Assembly: GCA_900114805.1 (NCBI GenBank)
Contig: FOZN01000002.1
Span: forward strand, 186,001 to 250,000
Source of the DNA: Agrococcus baldri
GTDB lineage: Bacteria; Actinomycetota; Actinomycetes; Actinomycetales; Microbacteriaceae
Direction: 5' to 3'
Length of the DNA stretch: 64,000 nt
Positions 1,599 through 34,906 of the stretch are shown in pieces. The position numbers and the translations under genes are program-made. The notes beneath the pieces were generated by a model, which saw nothing but the letters and a program-made list of their open reading frames with translations, had not been told where the DNA came from and ran no database searches. Positions within the stretch are counted from its first letter, which is position 1, and each line of letters begins with the position of its first letter.

Positions 1599-2528
1599 CT
1601 CGCCGGCCAGCAGCCCGCGCAGCCAGTCGCGGGCATCCTCGAACGAGGCGTCCGTGTAGCGGCGCTCGACCTCGCTGCGCTGGCCGTCAGCGCGCGGGTA
1701 CGAGCCGAGGAACGTCACCTTCGGTGAGAAGCGCTTGAGGCCCAGCAGCGCATCCGCCACCCGCTCGTCGCGGATGTGCCCGCTCGCGTCCATCACGAAG
1801 CGGTAGCGGCCGAGTCGGTCGCCGATGGGGCGCGACTGGATGAGCGAGAGGTTGACGCCGCGGGTCGCGAACTGCTCGAGCATGTCGAGCAGCATGCCCG
1901 CCTCGTCGCTCGGCAGCTCGACCACGAGGCTCGTCTTGTCGGCGCCGGTGGGCTCGCCCGGAGCGCCCGCGCGACCGACGAACAGGAACCGGGTCACCGC
2001 ATCCGCGTTGTCGCCGATGCGGTCGGCCAGCACCTCGAGGCCATCGACCCAGTGGCCGATCGTGGGGGTCGACAGCGCCGCCTGCGCTGCGCCGCCGCCC
2101 ACCAGCTCGGCGGCGGCGGTGACGTTGGAGGCGGCCGGCAGGTGGGCCCGGCCGGGCAGCTCGCGCTGCAGCCAGCCGGTGCACTGCGCCCAGGCGACCG
2201 GGTGCGCGGCGATCACCGTGATGTCCTCGAGGCGCGTGCCGGCGGGGGCGACCAGCGAGAAGTTCACGCTCACCACGTGCTCGGAGAGGATGCGCAGCCC
2301 GGGGATCGCCGCGAGCGCGTCCTGCGCGGCGGTGACGCCGCCCTCGATGGAGTTCTCGATCGCGATCATGGCGGCGTCGCTGCGGCCCTCGGCGACGGCG
2401 GTGAGCGCCTCGGCGACGTTCGCGACCGGCACCCGCTCGGCGTCCTCGAGCCCGGGCACCTGCTCGAGCGCGGCCTCGGTGAACGTGCCGCGAGGGCCGA
2501 GGAAGGTGACGACGCGCGGCTGGCTCAT
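1587..2528 (-). CDS. pheA: Prephenate dehydratase
   Basis: Converts prephenate to phenylpyruvate, the committed step of phenylalanine synthesis. The 313-aa protein starts with [15 protein letters not shown], the canonical N-terminus of the PDT domain (about 1-190). It has the catalytic-region TRF motif in [10 protein letters not shown] near residue 180, and a C-terminal ACT domain (about 200-290) carrying the [18 protein letters not shown] element of Phe feedback inhibition. There is no fused chorismate mutase; a separate one lies at 47310-47600. The start is supported by a -10 box 7 bases upstream. The stop codon lies inside a 13-bp tandem repeat, and the next repeat copies lie beyond it untranslated. 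Confidence 0.96.
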
Positions 2529-2535
2529 GGATGCC

Positions 2536-2541
2536 AGCCTA
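2536..2541 (-). promoter_or_regulatory. -10 box of pheA (leaderless)
   Basis: TAGGCT on the minus strand, 7 bases before the pheA ATG at 2528. No -35 is obvious. Confidence 0.5.
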
Positions 2542-2593
2542 CGGCCGTGCGCACGCCCTGCCGCCGCTGAGCCACGGGTGCTTGGATGGGGCC

Positions 2594-4243
2594 ATGAGCA
2601 GAGCAGGCACGACCGCCCAGCCCCAGGACCTCATCGATCTCGCCGCCCTCGAGCGCGCGTACTTCGAGCTCGTGCCCGACGTGGCGAACCCCGACCAGGC
2701 GGTGGCGTTCGGCACCAGCGGCCACCGCGGCAGCGCCCTCGACACCGCCTTCAACGAGACGCACATCCTGGCGATCACGCAGGCGATCTGCGAGTACCGC
2801 GCCGACCAGGGCATCACCGGGCCGCTCTTCATCGGCCGCGACACGCACGCGCTCTCGCTGCCCGCCGAGCGCACGGCGCTCGAGGTGCTGGTCGCCAACG
2901 GCGTCAGGGTGACGGCGGATGCGCGGGGCTCGGTGACGCCGACCCCGGCCGTCTCGCGCGCCATCCTCGACTACAACCGGGACGCATCCGCCAGTGACGG
3001 ACGGCAGAGCGACCGAGCCGACGGGATCGTCGTCACGCCGAGCCACAACCCGCCCCGCGACGGCGGCTTCAAGTACAACCCGCCGCACGGCGGGCCTGCC
3101 GACTCAGATGCGACGGGCTGGATCGCGAAGCGCGCGAACGAGCTGATCGCTGGCGGCCTCGAGGGCGTGCGACGGGTCGCCGTGGAGGGCTCGAGCGACA
3201 GCCGCGTCGAGCTGTACGACTTCCGCGAGGAGTACGTGAAGGGGCTCGGCCGGGTCATCGACTTCGAGGCGATCAAGGCCGCTGGCATCAGGATCGGCGC
3301 CGACCCGCTGGGCGGCGCGGCGGTCGAGTACTACGGCGCGATCGCCGAGCGGTACGGCATCGACCTGACCGTCACGAACCCCACGGTCGACGCCACCTGG
3401 GCGTTCATGACGCTCGACTGGGACGAGAAGATCCGCATGGACTGCTCGAGCCCGAACGCGATGGCCTCGGTGCTCGCGCGCAAGGACGAGTTCGACATCC
3501 TCACCGGCAACGACGCCGACGCCGACCGGCACGGCATCGTCACGCCCGACGGCGGGCTGATGAACCCCAACCACTTCCTCGCCGTCGCGATCGAGTACCT
3601 CTACGCGCACCGGCCGGGCTGGCGCGCCGACGCCGCCATCGGCAAGACGCTGGTCTCCTCGTCGATGATCGACCGGGTGGCGGATGCGCTCGGTCGCCGC
3701 CTGTGGGAGGTGCCGGTCGGGTTCAAGTGGTTCGTGCCCGGCCTGCTCGACGGCTCCGTCGGCTTCGGCGGCGAGGAGAGCGCCGGCGCCTCGTTCCTGC
3801 AGCTGGACGGCACGGTCTGGACGACGGACAAGGACGGCATCCTGCTGTGCCTGCTGGCCTCGGAGATCCGTGCGGTGACGGGCAAGTCGCCCTCGCAGCT
3901 GTACGGCGAGCTGACCGAGCGCTTCGGCGCGCCCGTCTACGAGCGGGTGGATGCGCCGGCGACGCGGGAGCAGAAGGCGCGGCTCGGCAAGCTCACGGGC
4001 GACGCGGTGACGGCGACCTCGCTGGCCGGCGACCCGATCGTGGCGAAGCTGACCGAGGCGCCCGGCAATGGCGCTGCGATCGGCGGGCTGAAGGTCGTCA
4101 CCGAGCGCGCCTGGTTCGCCGCGCGGCCGTCGGGCACCGAGGACGTCTACAAGATCTATGCCGAGTCGTTCGTGGGCGCCGACCACCTGCGCGAGGTGCA
4201 GGCCGAGGCGAAGGCGATCGTCGATGCGGCCCTCGCTGGTTGA
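2594..4243 (+). CDS. pgm: Phosphoglucomutase (alpha-D-glucose phosphate-specific)
   Basis: Interconverts glucose 1-phosphate and glucose 6-phosphate for glycogen and envelope sugar metabolism. The 549-aa length matches bacterial Pgm. It shows the FGTSGHRG substrate-loop motif near residue 39, the catalytic phosphoserine loop [13 protein letters not shown] (about residue 144), the Mg2+ loop [10 protein letters not shown] (about 306), a sugar-binding GGEESAG motif (about 394), and the phosphate-binding end [16 protein letters not shown]. The reading frame is open further upstream, but ATG at 2594 gives the normal N-terminus ([16 protein letters not shown]), and a weak -10-like TTGGAT sits 6 bases before it. 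A strong hairpin follows the stop codon immediately. Confidence 0.96.
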
Positions 4244-13800: not shown

Positions 13801-13866
13801 CGCCCGGTCCTGCACAACGCAAGTCGGCCTCGCGGCCGTGCGCCGCATCCGCTCGCGGAACGCGAA

Positions 13867-13921
13867 CGACCCCTTCCGGACAGCGTCCCGGTGCACCGGG
13901 CGCGCGAGGCGGAAGGGGTCG
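13867..13921 (-). terminator. Nested hairpin terminator of the DEAD-box helicase gene
   Basis: A perfect 12-bp outer stem CGACCCCTTCCG (13867-13878) / CGGAAGGGGTCG (13910-13921) encloses a perfect palindrome CCCGGTGCACCGGG (13887-13900). It starts 10 bp after the helicase stop codon. Confidence 0.75.
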
Positions 13922-13931
13922 CTGAGGCGGT

Positions 13932-17273: not shown

Positions 17274-20200
17274 TCACCGCTGGCTGGCAGCGGCGAGCTC
17301 GCCTCGACGCTCGGCGCGCGTGCCGCTGCCGCGGCGCACGCGCCGCCGCTCGATCGCACCCTCGACGACCAGGTAGAGCACCGGCAGCACGATGAGCGTC
17401 AGCACCGTCGACGAGATCAGGCCGCCGATCACCACGATCGCCAGCGGCTGCGAGATGAAGCCGCCCTGACCGGTGAGGCCGGCCGCCATCGGCACGAGCG
17501 CGAAGATCGTCGCCGCTGCGGTCATCAGGATGGGCCGCAGCCTGCGCTCGGCGCCCTCGACGAGCGCCTCGCGCACGCTCAGCCCCCGGTCCCGGTACTG
17601 GTTGACGAGGTCGATGAGCACGATCGCGTTGGTGACCACGATGCCGACGAGCATCAGCACACCGACCATCGAGGCGACGCCCAGCGGCACCCCGGTGATG
17701 AGCTGCATGGCGATCGCGCCGGTGGCCGCGAAGGGCACCGAGACCAGCAGCAGGAACGGCTGCAGCAGGCTCTTGAAGGTGGCCACCATGACGACGTAGA
17801 CGAGCAGCACCGCGATCAGTGCCGCGATCCCGAGCTGGGTGAACGCATCCGTGATCTGGGTGGCGACGCCGCCGATCTCGGCGGTCGCGCCCTCGGCGAG
17901 CTCGAGCCCGTCGAGCTCTGCCTGCAGGCTCGCGGAGAGCCCGCCGACATCCGCCGCGTCGGGCGTGACGGTGACGGTCGCCGTGCGGCTGCCGTCGCTG
18001 GTGGCGATCGAGACGGGGCCGGTGACCTCGGTCACCTCGGCGACGTCCGACAGCGGCAGCGGGCCGGCGGGCGTCGGCAGCTCGAGGCTGCGCAGCTCGT
18101 CGAGCGTCGAGGCAGGCGCGATGGCGTCGAGCCAGATGCGCACGAGCGAGCCGTCGAGCTGGATGTCGCCGATGGGCGTCGGCTGCATCGCCTGCGCGAC
18201 CAGGCCGGAGACCGCCGCCTCGCTGAGCCCCAGGCTCGCCGCCAGCTCGCGGTCGACGGCGACCTGCACGAGCGGCTGGGCGCCCTCGAGCGAGTCCGTC
18301 ACCTGGGCGACGCCGTCGAGTCCGGTGAGGCGGTCGGAGACGGATGCGGTGGCCGCCTCGAGCGCCTCGGGCGTCGGCGCCTGCACCTCGACGGTGATGT
18401 CGCTGCCGCCCAGGCCGCCGGAGGAGCCGACCGTCACCTCGCCGGTCGCCGCGTCGCCGATCTCGAGGATGTCGGCGCGCAGCGCCTCCATGTCGGTGCC
18501 GTCGGCGGCGATGACGCCGTAGCGCACCGAGCTGCCGCCTCCGCCGCCGGTGAAGGCGGCGAACGCGCCGGCGCCGCTGGAGACGGTCGCCGAGACCGTC
18601 TCCACGCCGTCGAGCGCCTGCAGTTCGGCGGAGAGCGCCTCCGCCTCGTCGAGCTGCGCGTCGAGCGATGCGCCGGGCTCGAGCTGCTGCGAGAGCTGCA
18701 CGGTGGTCTGGCCGTCGTCGCCGAGGAAGTTGATCGCCATGAGCGGCACGGCTGCGCCGCTCGCGCCCAGCACGAGCACGGCGCCGATCAGCACCAGCCA
18801 GGGCTTGCGCAGCGTCGCCAGCAGCACGGGCCGGTAGGCGCGGCGCAGCCGGTCGCTGCGCTCTGGCCGGTCGGCCGGCTCGATCGGTGCTGCACCGACC
18901 GCTGCGGTTCCGGATGCTGCCGCGCTGTGGACCCGTTCGAGATCGCTGGACCCGCCAGAACGGGTCCGCCGATCTCCAAGGGGTCCACGAGCGGGGGCGG
19001 ATGCGCGGCGGCGGCCGAAGATGCCGCGCCGGGCGGGCTGCACGGCGGCCTGCTGCTCTGTCTGCGCCGCTCGCTCGGCCGCGACCCGCTCGGCCTCGAC
19101 GGCCTCCTTCGGGCGCTTGAGCAGCCAGGACGCGAGCACCGGCACGATCGTCAGCGCGATCACCAGCGACGACAGCAGCGCGATCGTCACCGTCAGCGCG
19201 AAGGGCCGGAAGAGCTCGCCGGTGATGTCGCTGACGAAGGCCAGTGGCAGGAACACGATGACGGTGGTGACCGTCGACGCCGTGATCGCGCCCGCGACCT
19301 CGCGCACCGCATCCAGGATCGCCTTCGCCTTCGAGGCCTGGAAGGCCAGGTGGCGCTTGATGTTCTCGATCACCACGATCGAGTCGTCGACGACGCGGCC
19401 GATCGAGATGGTCAGCGCGCCGAGCGTGAGCACGTTCAGCGAGAAGCCGGCGCCCCACATGCCGATGAACGTCATCAGCACCGACATCGGGATGGAGATG
19501 GCGGTGACGATCGTCGAGCGCAGCGACCACAGGAAGATGAGGATCACGAGCACGGCGAACACCAGCCCCAGCACACCCTCGACCGCGAGCGCCTCGATCG
19601 AGTGCTCGATGTAGGGCGCCTGGTCGAGGATCGTGGTGATGGCGACGTCGTCGCCGAGCTCTGCCTGGATCGCTGGCAGCAGCTCGTGCACGGCGTGCGA
19701 GACGTCGACGGTGTTCGAGGCCTGCGTCTTGGTGATCGACAGCGTGATGGAGGGCTGGCCGTCGACGAGCGCGACGGAGGTGACGGGATCCTCGGTGAGC
19801 GCGACCTCCGCCATGTCGCCGATCGTGACGGTCTCGGCGGCGGGGCCGTCCCCGACGGCACCCGGCTCGACAGCGGTGCCGCCCTGGTCTCCAGCGCCCG
19901 CCTCGCCGCCGGTGCCGCCCTGGCCGCCAGCGCCCGCCTCGCTGCCGCCCGTGAGGGGCAGGTTCGCCACGTCATCGACCGAGCCGAGCCGCTCGCCGAT
20001 CTGCACGCTGAGCGTCTGGCCGTCGTCGTCGACGGTGCCGCCGGGCAGCAGCTGCCCCTGCTGGTCGATCGCGTCGCGGATGCTCTGCCTCGACAGCCCG
20101 GCAGCCGTGAGCGCCTCGTCGTCGGGGCTGATGGTGATGCGCTGGCCCGGTGCGCCCTGCAGCTGCACCGCGCGCACGCCCTCGGTGCGCTCGAGCTGCG

Positions 20201-20684
20201 GCACCGCGATGGTCTCGATGCGGTCGACCAGCGCCGCGGTGTCCTCGCCGCCGGTGACAGCCAGCTGCAGCACGGGGAAGTCGGCGATCGAGCCGGTGAG
20301 CACCGTGGGCTCGACGCCCTCTGGCAGCTGGCTCGCGATGCGGTTGACGGCCTGCTGCACGCGCTGCTCGGTGGTGGCCATGTTCACGCCGTACTCGAAC
20401 TGCGCGACCACCACGCTCGAGCCCGTGGAGGAGGTGCCGCTGGTGCCCTCCAGGCTCTGCACCGACTGCACCGCCCGCTCGATGGGCTCGGTGACGTCGG
20501 CGCTGATGATCTCGGGGCTCGCGCCCTGCATGTTCGACATCACCACGACCGCCGGCAGCTCGAGCTCGGGAGTGAGCTCGGTCTTCAGGCTCGACAGCGC
20601 CACCCCGCCGAAGATCGCGATGCAGATGGTCACGAGCGCGACGAGCGCCTTGTTCTTCATGCTGGCGAGAGAGAGCAGATGCAC
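17274..20684 (-). CDS. RND efflux transporter, AcrB/SwrC-like
   Basis: A 1136-aa inner-membrane efflux pump of the HAE-RND superfamily. Two homologous halves each have a leading helix, a large extracytoplasmic porter loop and five further helices. The proton-relay Asp pair is visible in ISIGRVVDDSIVVIEN (TM4). The first porter loop has a Gly/Thr-rich insertion (about 250-280, GGTGGEAGAGDQGGT). The central cytoplasmic loop (about 520-620) is long and contains, in frame at residues 567-586, a 58-bp palindromic repeat. GTG 20684 is chosen because GGGAGG lies 9 bases upstream. No membrane-fusion or outer-membrane partner is nearby, as expected in a Gram-positive. The MerR/TipAS gene just upstream may regulate it. 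Confidence 0.93.
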   Translation of the reverse strand: MHLLSLASMKNKALVALVTICIAIFGGVALSSLKTELTPELELPAVVVMSNMQGASPEIISADVTEPIERAVQSVQSLEGTSGTSSTGSSVVVAQFEYGVNMATTEQRVQQAVNRIASQLPEGVEPTVLTGSIADFPVLQLAVTGGEDTAALVDRIETIAVPQLERTEGVRAVQLQGAPGQRITISPDDEALTAAGLSRQSIRDAIDQQGQLLPGGTVDDDGQTLSVQIGERLGSVDDVANLPLTGGSEAGAGGQGGTGGEAGAGDQGGTAVEPGAVGDGPAAETVTIGDMAEVALTEDPVTSVALVDGQPSITLSITKTQASNTVDVSHAVHELLPAIQAELGDDVAITTILDQAPYIEHSIEALAVEGVLGLVFAVLVILIFLWSLRSTIVTAISIPMSVLMTFIGMWGAGFSLNVLTLGALTISIGRVVDDSIVVIENIKRHLAFQASKAKAILDAVREVAGAITASTVTTVIVFLPLAFVSDITGELFRPFALTVTIALLSSLVIALTIVPVLASWLLKRPKEAVEAERVAAERAAQTEQQAAVQPARRGIFGRRRASAPARGPLGDRRTRSGGSSDLERVHSAAASGTAAVGAAPIEPADRPERSDRLRRAYRPVLLATLRKPWLVLIGAVLVLGASGAAVPLMAINFLGDDGQTTVQLSQQLEPGASLDAQLDEAEALSAELQALDGVETVSATVSSGAGAFAAFTGGGGGSSVRYGVIAADGTDMEALRADILEIGDAATGEVTVGSSGGLGGSDITVEVQAPTPEALEAATASVSDRLTGLDGVAQVTDSLEGAQPLVQVAVDRELAASLGLSEAAVSGLVAQAMQPTPIGDIQLDGSLVRIWLDAIAPASTLDELRSLELPTPAGPLPLSDVAEVTEVTGPVSIATSDGSRTATVTVTPDAADVGGLSASLQAELDGLELAEGATAEIGGVATQITDAFTQLGIAALIAVLLVYVVMVATFKSLLQPFLLLVSVPFAATGAIAMQLITGVPLGVASMVGVLMLVGIVVTNAIVLIDLVNQYRDRGLSVREALVEGAERRLRPILMTAAATIFALVPMAAGLTGQGGFISQPLAIVVIGGLISSTVLTLIVLPVLYLVVEGAIERRRVRRGSGTRAERRGELAAASQR
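18929..18986. repeat. 58-bp nested palindromic element, copy 1, inside the RND pump gene
   Basis: The outer arms GGACCCGTTCGAGATC (18929-18944) and GATCTCCAAGGGGTCC (18971-18986) pair at 14 of 16 positions. The inner arms GGACCCG / CGGGTCC pair perfectly around ccagaa. It is read on the minus strand as 20 in-frame residues beginning GPLGD and ending SSDLERVH. A second copy of exactly the same length lies at 34291-34348. Confidence 0.85.
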
Positions 20685-20737
20685 GCGACGATCCTCCCAC
20701 CACAACGGTGAGGGGCGGATGCGCGCTGGAACTGAGA

Positions 20738-20761
20738 GAGGCGGCCCTTTCGGGCCGCCTC
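20738..20761 (-). terminator. Hairpin terminator of the merR gene
   Basis: GAGGCGGCCC, loop tttc, then GGGCCGCCTC: a perfect 10-bp stem 62 bp beyond the merR stop and upstream of the RND pump start. It partly separates merR and pump transcription. Confidence 0.65.
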
Positions 20762-20822
20762 CGTGACGCCAGCGCCGAGGCCCGTCCGCGGCCTCGGTCT
20801 CAGCTCCTCGATCGTCCGTCGG

Positions 20823-21563
20823 CTACCGCTGCCGCGCCGCGACGAACGCCAGCATGGCGTCGCGCACGTACGCCGCGCCCTCGGTGCCGCCGTAGTTGGC
20901 GGCGAATCGCTCGTCGGCGACGTACATCTCGCCCAGGCCCGCGAAGGCCTCGAGCTCGGGCTCGCGCTGCCAGCCGGCGCCGACCCAGCGGTAGTGCCGC
21001 TCGACGAGCGCCTGCACCGTGTCGGAGTCGACGCTCTCGCCCTCCTCGCGCGCTGCGGCGTAGCCTGCCGCGATGTCGAGGTGCTCCTGGCCGAACGCCT
21101 GCCTGCCCTCGTCGGACATGCCCTTCCACCAGTCCTGGCCGCGCTTCCACGCAGCGGCACCCCATCGCTCGGTCACCTCCTGCTCGTACTGGCTCTGATC
21201 GAACCCGTCGAGCGCTTCCTCTGCCGTCATGGCAGCTCCTTCCTCTCGTGCCCGCAGCGTCTGCTCGACGGCGCGGATCTGCCTGTGGACGCGATCGGCC
21301 TCACGCTCGAGGTCGACGAGGTGCGCCGCGAGCGCCTCCTCGTCGGATGCGCGCTCGAGGCTCGCGGCGATCGCTGGGATCCCCACACCCAGTCCGCGCA
21401 GCAGCAGGATGCGCTGCAGGCGACTGAGTGATGCCTCGTCGTACCAGCGCATGCCGCCCGCATCGGTGCGGGCAGGGTGCAGGATGCCGACGGCGTCGTA
21501 GTGCCGCAGTGTGCGGCTCGAGACGCCGGCGAGCTTCGCGATGCGCTGGATCGACCACTCCAT
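20823..21563 (-). CDS. MerR-family regulator with TipAS drug-sensing domain
   Basis: A 246-aa transcription regulator. The winged HTH (about 1-70: MEWSIQRIAKLAGVSSRTLRHYD) is followed by the dimerisation coiled coil (about 75-115), then a TipAS-like domain (about 120-240) with the WWKGMSDEGRQAFGQEHLDIA pattern. In Streptomyces TipAL this domain covalently or tightly binds thiopeptides and activates transcription of its own gene. The ATG at 21563 is fixed by a MerR-type promoter whose start point falls next to it. It lies upstream of an RND pump on the same strand and divergent from crcB. Likely autoregulated; drug sensing is inferred. Confidence 0.9.
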   Translation of the reverse strand: MEWSIQRIAKLAGVSSRTLRHYDAVGILHPARTDAGGMRWYDEASLSRLQRILLLRGLGVGIPAIAASLERASDEEALAAHLVDLEREADRVHRQIRAVEQTLRAREEGAAMTAEEALDGFDQSQYEQEVTERWGAAAWKRGQDWWKGMSDEGRQAFGQEHLDIAAGYAAAREEGESVDSDTVQALVERHYRWVGAGWQREPELEAFAGLGEMYVADERFAANYGGTEGAAYVRDAMLAFVAARQR

Positions 21564-33751: not shown

Positions 33752-34906
33752 TCAGCCGACGGGTTCACGGGCGGCAGACGGCGCCCAGACACCGACCGCT
33801 GCCACCAGGCACGCCAGCGCTGCCCCGAGCACGACGTCGGGCAGCGGCACCGCGTGCAGCAGCAGCGCCGCGAGGCTGGCCCCCGCTGCGCCCGCGAGCA
33901 GCAGCAGCGCGGTCGCGCCGGTCGCGACCCGGTGACCGGCGCGCCGTGCGAGCTCTGCAAGGGCGACGGATGCGGCGAGCGCCACACCGAGCACGACCGC
34001 GGCCACCCAGTCCAAGACCCCGGGCCGCGCGATGGGGGCCGCGAGCGCCGCGGCGCCGCCGACCGTCGCGAGGACCGCTGCGGACCGGCCGCCGGCTCGT
34101 TCGGCGAGCATCGCCAGCGGCGGGCCCAGCAGCGCCCCGAGCGCGAGGGTGAGGGCGATCGGCCCGGCCGGCTGCGGGTGGTCGGCGCCGATCGCAGAGA
34201 GCGCCGGACGCAGCGCAGCGAGCGCGGTGAGGCCGGCGGCGGCGATGGCCAGCAGGGCCAGAAGCGCCGGCTGCGCGGTCTCCGCGGCGCGGACCCCTTC
34301 GAGATCTGAGGACCTGTTGTGGCGGGTCCCCTGATCCGGAACAGGTCCATCGACACGATCCGACGGTGGATTCGACGCCGTGGCGAGTGCCGCGATGACC
34401 AGCTGCAGGAGCGCGGCGGCGATGAGCGCGATGCTCACGCCGAGCGCCGATGAGGCGGCGGCGACGGCGACCAGCGCGACGCCCGCCGCGGCGGCGAGCA
34501 GCGTAGGAGCCGGGCGCACCCGCGGCGCGAGCACCGGGTCGGCGGCGACCTGCGCGCGCACGCCGGCGATCTGCACGCCGGCGGCCAGGCCGAGCGCTGC
34601 GGCGACCGCCAGGTGCGGCGGCTGATCGAGCAGCGCGAGGGCCGCCGCGCCGGCAGCGGCAATCGCGGCGACCGTCGCCGCAGCGAGCAGCAGCGCACGG
34701 GGCGCGGTGCCGGCGCGAGCGGAGACCGCACCCAGCACGGCGATGGCGAGCGCTGCCGCGGCGAGCGCGCAGGCCGCACCGAATGCGAGCGCGAGGGGTG
34801 CGCGCTCGCGCCCCAGCGCATCCGTCACCAGTGCGGCTGCGGCGAGCCCGTGCGCGACCCAGGCGAGTGCGTGCCCGCTGCCGAGCCGTGCGCGCCGGGT
34901 CGCCAC
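33752..34906 (-). CDS. Polytopic membrane protein carrying an in-frame palindromic element, unknown
   Basis: A 384-aa, Ala/Leu-rich protein with about 11-12 predicted membrane helices in two groups of roughly six, divided by a central hydrophilic loop (about 182-212). The 6+6 layout is like that of an MFS transporter, but I see no MFS signature. The central loop consists mostly of a 58-bp palindromic repeat read in frame (residues 187-206). It starts GTG 34906, two bases after the stop of the upstream membrane gene, so they form an operon. It is convergent with purF, with stops 10 bp apart. Confidence 0.75.
   Translation of the reverse strand: MATRRARLGSGHALAWVAHGLAAAALVTDALGRERAPLALAFGAACALAAAALAIAVLGAVSARAGTAPRALLLAAATVAAIAAAGAAALALLDQPPHLAVAAALGLAAGVQIAGVRAQVAADPVLAPRVRPAPTLLAAAAGVALVAVAAASSALGVSIALIAAALLQLVIAALATASNPPSDRVDGPVPDQGTRHNRSSDLEGVRAAETAQPALLALLAIAAAGLTALAALRPALSAIGADHPQPAGPIALTLALGALLGPPLAMLAERAGGRSAAVLATVGGAAALAAPIARPGVLDWVAAVVLGVALAASVALAELARRAGHRVATGATALLLLAGAAGASLAALLLHAVPLPDVVLGAALACLVAAVGVWAPSAAREPVG
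34291..34348. repeat. 58-bp nested palindromic element, copy 2, inside a membrane protein gene
   Basis: Same length and layout as 18929-18986, with 40 of 58 positions identical by my alignment. The outer arms GGACCCCTTCGAGATC / GATCCGGAACAGGTCC pair at 12 of 16, and the inner arms GGACCTG / CGGGTCC at 6 of 7 plus a wobble. Read in the same frame as copy 1: begins GPVPD and ends SSDLEGVR. Confidence 0.82.

Follow-up and report, generated by a model that had tools for sequence, protein, structure and literature searches.

Two nested palindromes lie inside genes in the stretch of Agrococcus baldri DNA analysed here, a window of 64,000 nucleotides, and the locus raises the question of what kind of repeat can settle in reading frames in this way and how its sequence is maintained. 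The original prediction regarded the palindromes as a possible protein-coding element. Both of those read at 18929-18986 and 34291-34348 proved to be real and to lie at these places; when the unit is taken as the stretch that aligns without gaps to other copies, it measures 60 bp and runs over 18928-18987 and 34290-34349. The window contains the following features:

17274 to 20705, minus strand: RND efflux pump ORF with Pfam ACR_tran in three stretches; copy 1 lies in its central linker, and the ORF was used for the orthologue alignment
18928 to 18987, no strand assigned: palindrome copy 1, a 60-bp nested palindrome in the RND pump ORF, linker type TTCGAGAT
33752 to 34906, minus strand: multi-TM ORF of 384 aa, with copy 2 between its two hydrophobic halves
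34290 to 34349, no strand assigned: palindrome copy 2, a 60-bp nested palindrome in the hydrophobic multi-TM ORF
13866 to 13922, no strand assigned: weak copy of 57 bp in the gap between two genes, TTCC / GGTGCACC type (model R2, E 2.2e-4 and 0.002), probably decayed

The palindrome family and its unit

The reported identity of 40/58 between the two palindromes was reproduced directly, and 47 of 58 positions agreed when one was compared with the reverse complement of the other; in inverted orientation the copies are alike over 39 nt (87%, E 1.4e-5). The inverted repeat of copy 1 extends to 18927-18988 with arms that are 86% complementary, and 23 of its 27 stem positions are paired, against a maximum of 22 among 100 first-order Markov windows. 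Copy 2, with 19 of 27 positions paired, does not by itself exceed the mean chance maximum of 19.07, and it is absent from the inverted-repeat listing of the window. A plain DNA search of the 2.90-Mb genome with copy 1 found four further places (E 1.4e-9 to 1.6e-5), copy 2 not among them. No match was obtained in an Rfam 15 scan of the window at gathering score, and a Pfam search with the multi-TM ORF returned no family.

The covariance-model search suggested with the original prediction revealed more copies. Model R1, made from ten copies, located 18 distinct places in the own genome (E <=0.0145), and the broader model R2, made from 104 copies, located the same 18 plus three weak ones among the 150 of 3001 candidates that were scored. 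Copies 1 and 2 were both in the training set, and their model E-values are partly given by construction. Since only the best candidates were scored in the genome searches (150 in one genome and 55 or 22 in many), copy numbers are lower bounds; several assemblies are fragmented. Within the genus, 18 of 24 genomes carry the palindrome with R1 as with R2; neither model matched in G003, G009, G012, G015, G021 and G023, with completeness values of 78% for G003 and 86% for G015. Beyond Agrococcus, R2 gave matches in two of 36 Microbacteriaceae genomes and in one of 39 from the order at large (R1: 3 and 1), and in a separate draw of 249 genomes of the family it matched nine, five of them Agrococcus. 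One genome of another genus, G031, harbors a sister family with 11 full-length places (E <=0.1), of which ten measure 62 nt and the other 61 nt; five of these were read. DNA searches of plasmids with a G018 array and of phages with a window copy gave no match. A literature search covering few subscription papers brought up no evident description of a repeat of this kind from Agrococcus or Microbacteriaceae. Kinship with TTCGACAGGCTCAG, presumably a common repeat in other genomes, was considered and dropped; a literature search for TTCGACAGGCTCAG gave nothing. Orthologues of the multi-TM gene (33752-34906) occur in exactly the 18 palindrome-carrying genomes of the 24 and not in the other six, a co-occurrence that probably just marks one clade.

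The unit has the architecture GGACC-14 nt-GGACC-loop-GGTCC-14 nt-GGTCC, with GGACC boxes at positions 2-6 and 21-25 and GGTCC boxes at 36-40 and 55-59; in some copies a box reads CGACC. It is 60 nt long in 105 of 107 genus copies and 59 nt in two, the 107 being the 113 recorded copies less two in a duplicated segment of G007 (L088) and four from other genera, all of which were dropped from most counts. The G007 loci L087 and L088, on one contig (C3:38720 and C3:355212), share a pair of palindromes together with its flanks but are inverted relative to each other, which reflects either an inverted duplication or an assembly effect. The outer-box pairs 3-58 to 6-55 are intact in 103 or 104 of 104 copies; for the inner boxes, pairs 22-39, 24-37 and 25-36 are intact in 101 or 102 copies and pair 23-38 in 91. 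Part of this box conservation is detection bias, as the models more readily pick up units of 60 nt with intact boxes.

Between the boxes, the linkers differ from genome to genome. They are CGTTCGAGAT-like in the genome under study (G000) and in its close relative G018, TCCTGCGTC- and TCGCGCATC-like in G008 and TCTCGGCAGCG-like in G014, G016 and G022, and TTCCACC or TTCCGCC linkers with GGTGCACC loops are found in G004, G007, G019 and others. In addition to the TTCGAGAT type, G000 has four strong copies of this TTCC/GGTGCACC type. Direct repeats of the arm unit, with periods of 19, 38 or 51 bp, adjoin some copies. In G018 (L060:1870-2046) several direct repeats of 19 bp lead into a complete palindrome, and 30 bp further on lies a gene for a DDE_3/HTH (IS630-type) transposase (2077-3072); as this gene adjoins one G018 array only, the enzyme was dropped as a candidate mover. 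One contig end of G018 (L142:1875-2004) lies inside an array of arm units with a 51-bp period, and this array is probably longer than assembled.

Stem covariation over the 104 copies was 0.392, compared with 0.132 in shuffled sets and at most 0.117 with slid partners. Pairs changed on both sides numbered 17 against 17.8 in shuffles and hence showed no excess, and covariation computed from just the ten own-genome copies did not stand out clearly from shuffled sets (39/500). A linker pairs to 0.728 with its partner in its own copy, to 0.572 with that of another copy in the same genome and to 0.436 with that of a copy from another genome. In 11 pairs of orthologous copies from close genomes, 21 pairs were broken and 3 compensated.

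Placement relative to genes

When the 113 copies were classified, 53 fell between co-directional, 34 between convergent and 13 between divergent genes, 10 fell in genes and 3 were left unassigned. One of the 100 intergenic copies (L073) truly lies inside an open multi-TM ORF of G018 that was missed by the gene calls, which came from a codon-usage finder trained on the window. At the genus loci, gaps with copies were co-directional in 47, convergent in 29 and divergent in 13 cases; for empty gaps of at least 60 bp at the same loci the numbers were 42, 8 and 29. Moreover, 35 of 51 co-directional copies were nearer to the upstream stop. Intergenic copies are thus biased to the 3' ends of genes. 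Copy-bearing gaps are long (median about 200-275 bp), the offsets inside them differ by tens of bases, and more than one copy, or an array, can occur in a single gap. The hairpin is not followed by a T-run, the flank from +1 to +10 being rich in C and G with no excess of T. A canonical intrinsic terminator was rejected on this ground and also because it gives no reason for shared linkers.

Within the own genome, four ORFs hold five of the 18 strong copies: the RND pump, the multi-TM ORF, dnaX (two copies; assigned by Pfam) and a double ABC-transporter ORF with one copy, which we take to resemble CydDC. G018 adds a copy at the tail of an ORF that presumably resembles TsaE, and further in-gene calls lie at gene ends, one in L068 (G018) and one in L033 (G001). 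As predicted, both window copies lie in genes, on two minus-strand ORFs, and in the same codon phase, an agreement that chance would give in one case out of three. The phase is constant for each gene in each species where the copy was read; it is phase 2 in the RND pump and the multi-TM ORF and phase 1, not the phase of the window copies, in the dnaX, cydDC-like and tsaE-like ORFs. The SSDLE motif noted in the translations is indeed common to the two window copies through their common phase, but with two phases in use there is no single encoded peptide.

These data bear on the idea that the palindrome is a protein-coding element in the Rickettsia sense that has spread mainly through ORFs. Such an origin would fit the share of strong own-genome copies found in ORFs and the openness of 73 of 105 copies in all six frames, an excess that is modest given that random 60-mers of the window are open at 0.81 per frame. 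About 0.90 of the window is coding and yet only 10 of 113 copies lie in called genes, so that genes are avoided or purged of copies. In addition, the two codon phases speak against it, and coding does not explain the length, since intergenic copies have the same 60 nt and the sister family of G031 has 62. We therefore regard a coding element as very improbable, and coding looks like a by-product. The broader part of the original prediction, a multi-copy family of nested palindromes able to sit in frame in genes, in tolerant linkers, is supported.

The copy in the RND pump is shown to be a new insertion. Of the 21 Agrococcus orthologues aligned, only those of G000 and G018 have it, and the eight aligned orthologues from other genera all lack it, in an alignment of 29 of 30 loci (L130 gave no segment); the residues are thus not shared by the pumps of distant genera, which would have spoken for ancestral sequence. 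Searching 19 other genus RND loci (L113-L131) with R2 revealed no copy at the linker and a single match (L126) well outside it. The absence of the 20 or so residues from orthologues was seen as far as the copy itself is concerned, but there is no precise 60-bp gap because the linker is hypervariable. At the multi-TM site, a copy is present in G000, G018, G019 and G005, and R2 matched in 3 of 17 other loci searched. Just upstream of its RND pump, G018 has a gene for a MerR/TipAS-type regulator that ends beside a palindrome (L058:3842-4585), and at about 20708-20825 of the window, likewise upstream of the pump, a different GC-rich hairpin is found where G018 has the palindrome.

Linkers at shared loci and their possible renewal

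When copies were grouped by flank homology, 40 pairs from distant genomes occupied the same locus; random placement over about 1630 gaps, as extrapolated from the window, would give 2.7. The pairs are non-independent and gaps are not equally likely. The count includes 16 of 20 locus groups and leaves out a large chained cluster, two pairs in close or duplicated segments and a within-genome pair. On rechecking, both flanks were homologous in 37 of the 40 pairs and one flank in 3. Identity in the variable columns is 0.590 within a genome versus 0.440 between distant genomes, and sharing a locus adds nothing to it: the difference between same and different loci was -0.009 (s.e. 0.022), or -0.012 (s.e. 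0.024) for pairs with both flanks. Hence the 14-nt linkers follow the species and not the locus, and this also holds, in the same frame, in the dnaX, cydDC-like, tsaE-like and multi-TM ORFs.

G019, the genome closest to G000 and G018 by RND protein, has 15 strong copies, 12 of which share their locus with a copy in G000 or G018; for 11 of the 12, both flanks are homologous. Nearly all of its copies at shared loci carry the linkers of G019, and the G000 and G018 copies carry theirs. Same-locus identity was 0.443 (n=17) versus 0.423 at different loci (n=583) and, slightly lower, 0.413 at random; 10.9% of permutations reached the same-locus value. At the tsaE-like tail, G018 and G019 agree at the same offset in 20 of 24 flank, 20 of 20 box and 13 of 28 linker positions; the corresponding numbers are 15/24, 18/20 and 11/28 in the cydDC-like ORF and 10/24, 20/20 and 6/28 for G000 and G019 in dnaX. 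Exceptions are a G000-G019 pair at L075, 0.81 alike with both copies of TTCC type, and a locus common to G000 (L018), G018 (L049) and G013 (L029), where copies are 0.89-0.94 alike and the intergenic flank is nearly identical. The latter stretch has therefore probably been exchanged between lineages. The RND protein of G013 is about 76-82% identical, and one copy of this genome has the G000/G018 linker type.

One way to arrive at this pattern is independent insertion, each lineage having its own mobile type that refills the same permissive gaps with nothing overwritten in place. The length of the copy-bearing gaps, the varying intergenic offsets and the gaps with several copies or arrays would agree with it. 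However, 40 coincidences against 2.7 would demand an about fifteen-fold preference, the flank bases match at the same offset on both sides of the tsaE-like tail copy, with the cydDC-like and dnaX counts pointing the same way, and the codon phase is the same at the same gene in each species. We consider independent insertion unlikely.

The gap sequence around occupied loci is mostly unalignable between species. A clean 60-bp empty site was sought in G000 for five copies present in G018 only (L059, L061, L064, L065 and L067) and for a sixth in the window; none was found, the gap contents being non-homologous, and at L065 and L067 the G000 gap is several kb longer than that of G018. Reading by eye revealed a different hairpin in the G000 gap at two sites where G018 carries a copy. 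In a gap of G000 (L155, C7:280000-299999, reverse strand), a dispersed-looking GGTCGAGGAGGCCGC-like repeat fills the space that a palindrome occupies in G018. A check of 105 copies for target-site duplications showed exact direct repeats at their ends to be as frequent as in mismatched flanks.

That loci remain occupied within unalignable surroundings could also be due to selection. A host protein would bind boxes and linkers, its specificity would drift in each species and all sites would follow, with no copying at old loci; the hairpin might be a 3'-end or terminator-like signal. The almost invariant outer boxes, the 3'-end bias of gaps and of co-directional copies and the other hairpin at two G018-copy sites are consistent with this explanation. 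It has to face, on the other hand, the arrival of a new copy in the RND pump, the decay of stem pairs between orthologous copies, in-gene copies of the same dialect for which there is no obvious regulatory reason, the share of detection bias in the box conservation and the missing T-run. We hold selection, the main rival of the copying set out below, to be possible rather than probable.

Alike linkers within a genome imply copying. Higgins et al. reportedly proposed gene conversion among REPs in 1988. RecA-type conversion seems unlikely where two types have only a few bases in a row in common. This would leave either an enzyme that acts on the folded strand or selection through a binding protein that co-evolves with the sites, of which we prefer the enzyme at a little under even chances. 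Our tentative reading, held with a confidence just short of evenly balanced, is that the palindromes are REPIN-like elements, short and non-autonomous, that belong to one set of Agrococcus species and are copied or overwritten by a putative factor. Such a factor, still present in the cells, would recognise the pair of boxes in the folded single strand and copy the unit, sometimes to a new place, as for the RND copy, and more often over an existing copy. Overwriting would let each species drift to its own linker 'dialect', and copies in genes would survive only where a stop-free insert of 20 residues in a linker or tail is harmless. As stems decay between orthologous copies, their palindromy would seem to be gained at birth or by overwriting rather than by steady repair. 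A search for Y1_Tnp, the domain of a RAYT or IS200/IS605-type enzyme, found none in the 24 genus genomes, and the same search was positive in 5 of 14 controls including E. coli. It is conceivable, if doubtful, that a dedicated RAYT-free system rewrites fixed hairpin addresses throughout the genome, which share little beyond four 5-bp boxes, to the current dialect of the species, in both arms and with no movement, between genes as well as in frame within genes such as dnaX.

If copies indeed stay put while their sequence is replaced species-wide, this would be concerted evolution of short dispersed repeats lacking the homology needed by ordinary gene conversion. Several of the 18 carrier genomes share loci with different dialects, which makes copying, overwriting and selection separable among close strains. 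Furthermore, flexible linkers of core proteins, as in the clamp-loader subunit DnaX, can gain and keep 20-residue inserts of non-coding origin.

Comparison with known repeat systems

The nearest known kind of repeat is the REPIN. A REPIN is an inverted pair of REPs copied by RAYT, RAYT homologues carry Pfam 01797 (PMC3116915, PMC8049555, PMC2817692) and REPs exceed 100 copies per genome (PMC2817692). Like these elements, the Agrococcus palindromes have inverted arms able to fold as a hairpin and are dispersed and mostly extragenic; a sequence type of its own in each genome, long maintenance and local arrays are further common traits. In contrast, a Pfam 01797 gene is missing from the 24 Agrococcus genomes. 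About 20 copies of fixed 60-nt length stand against many tens to hundreds, the species-variable part lies within the paired arms and not in the spacer alone, and no tag of the GTAG/GTGG type was seen.

With Rickettsia palindromic elements (PMC10969869), the family has in common the in-frame insertion in unrelated ORFs, which applies to a minority of Agrococcus copies. It differs in its length of 60 nt versus about 150, in the location of about one tenth of the copies in genes and in the use of two codon phases with no conserved peptide. The DNA uptake sequence dialects of Neisseriaceae (PMC3630211) likewise combine a short invariant core with a species dialect, form inverted pairs in intergenic hairpins and have a few copies in genes, whereas they comprise thousands of 10-12-mers and the Agrococcus repeat about 20 copies of 60 nt. 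Finally, prokaryotic MITEs (PMC10969869) are also small, non-autonomous inverted repeats located mostly between genes; the Agrococcus repeat is unlike them in being GC-rich and free of target-site duplication in 105 copies.
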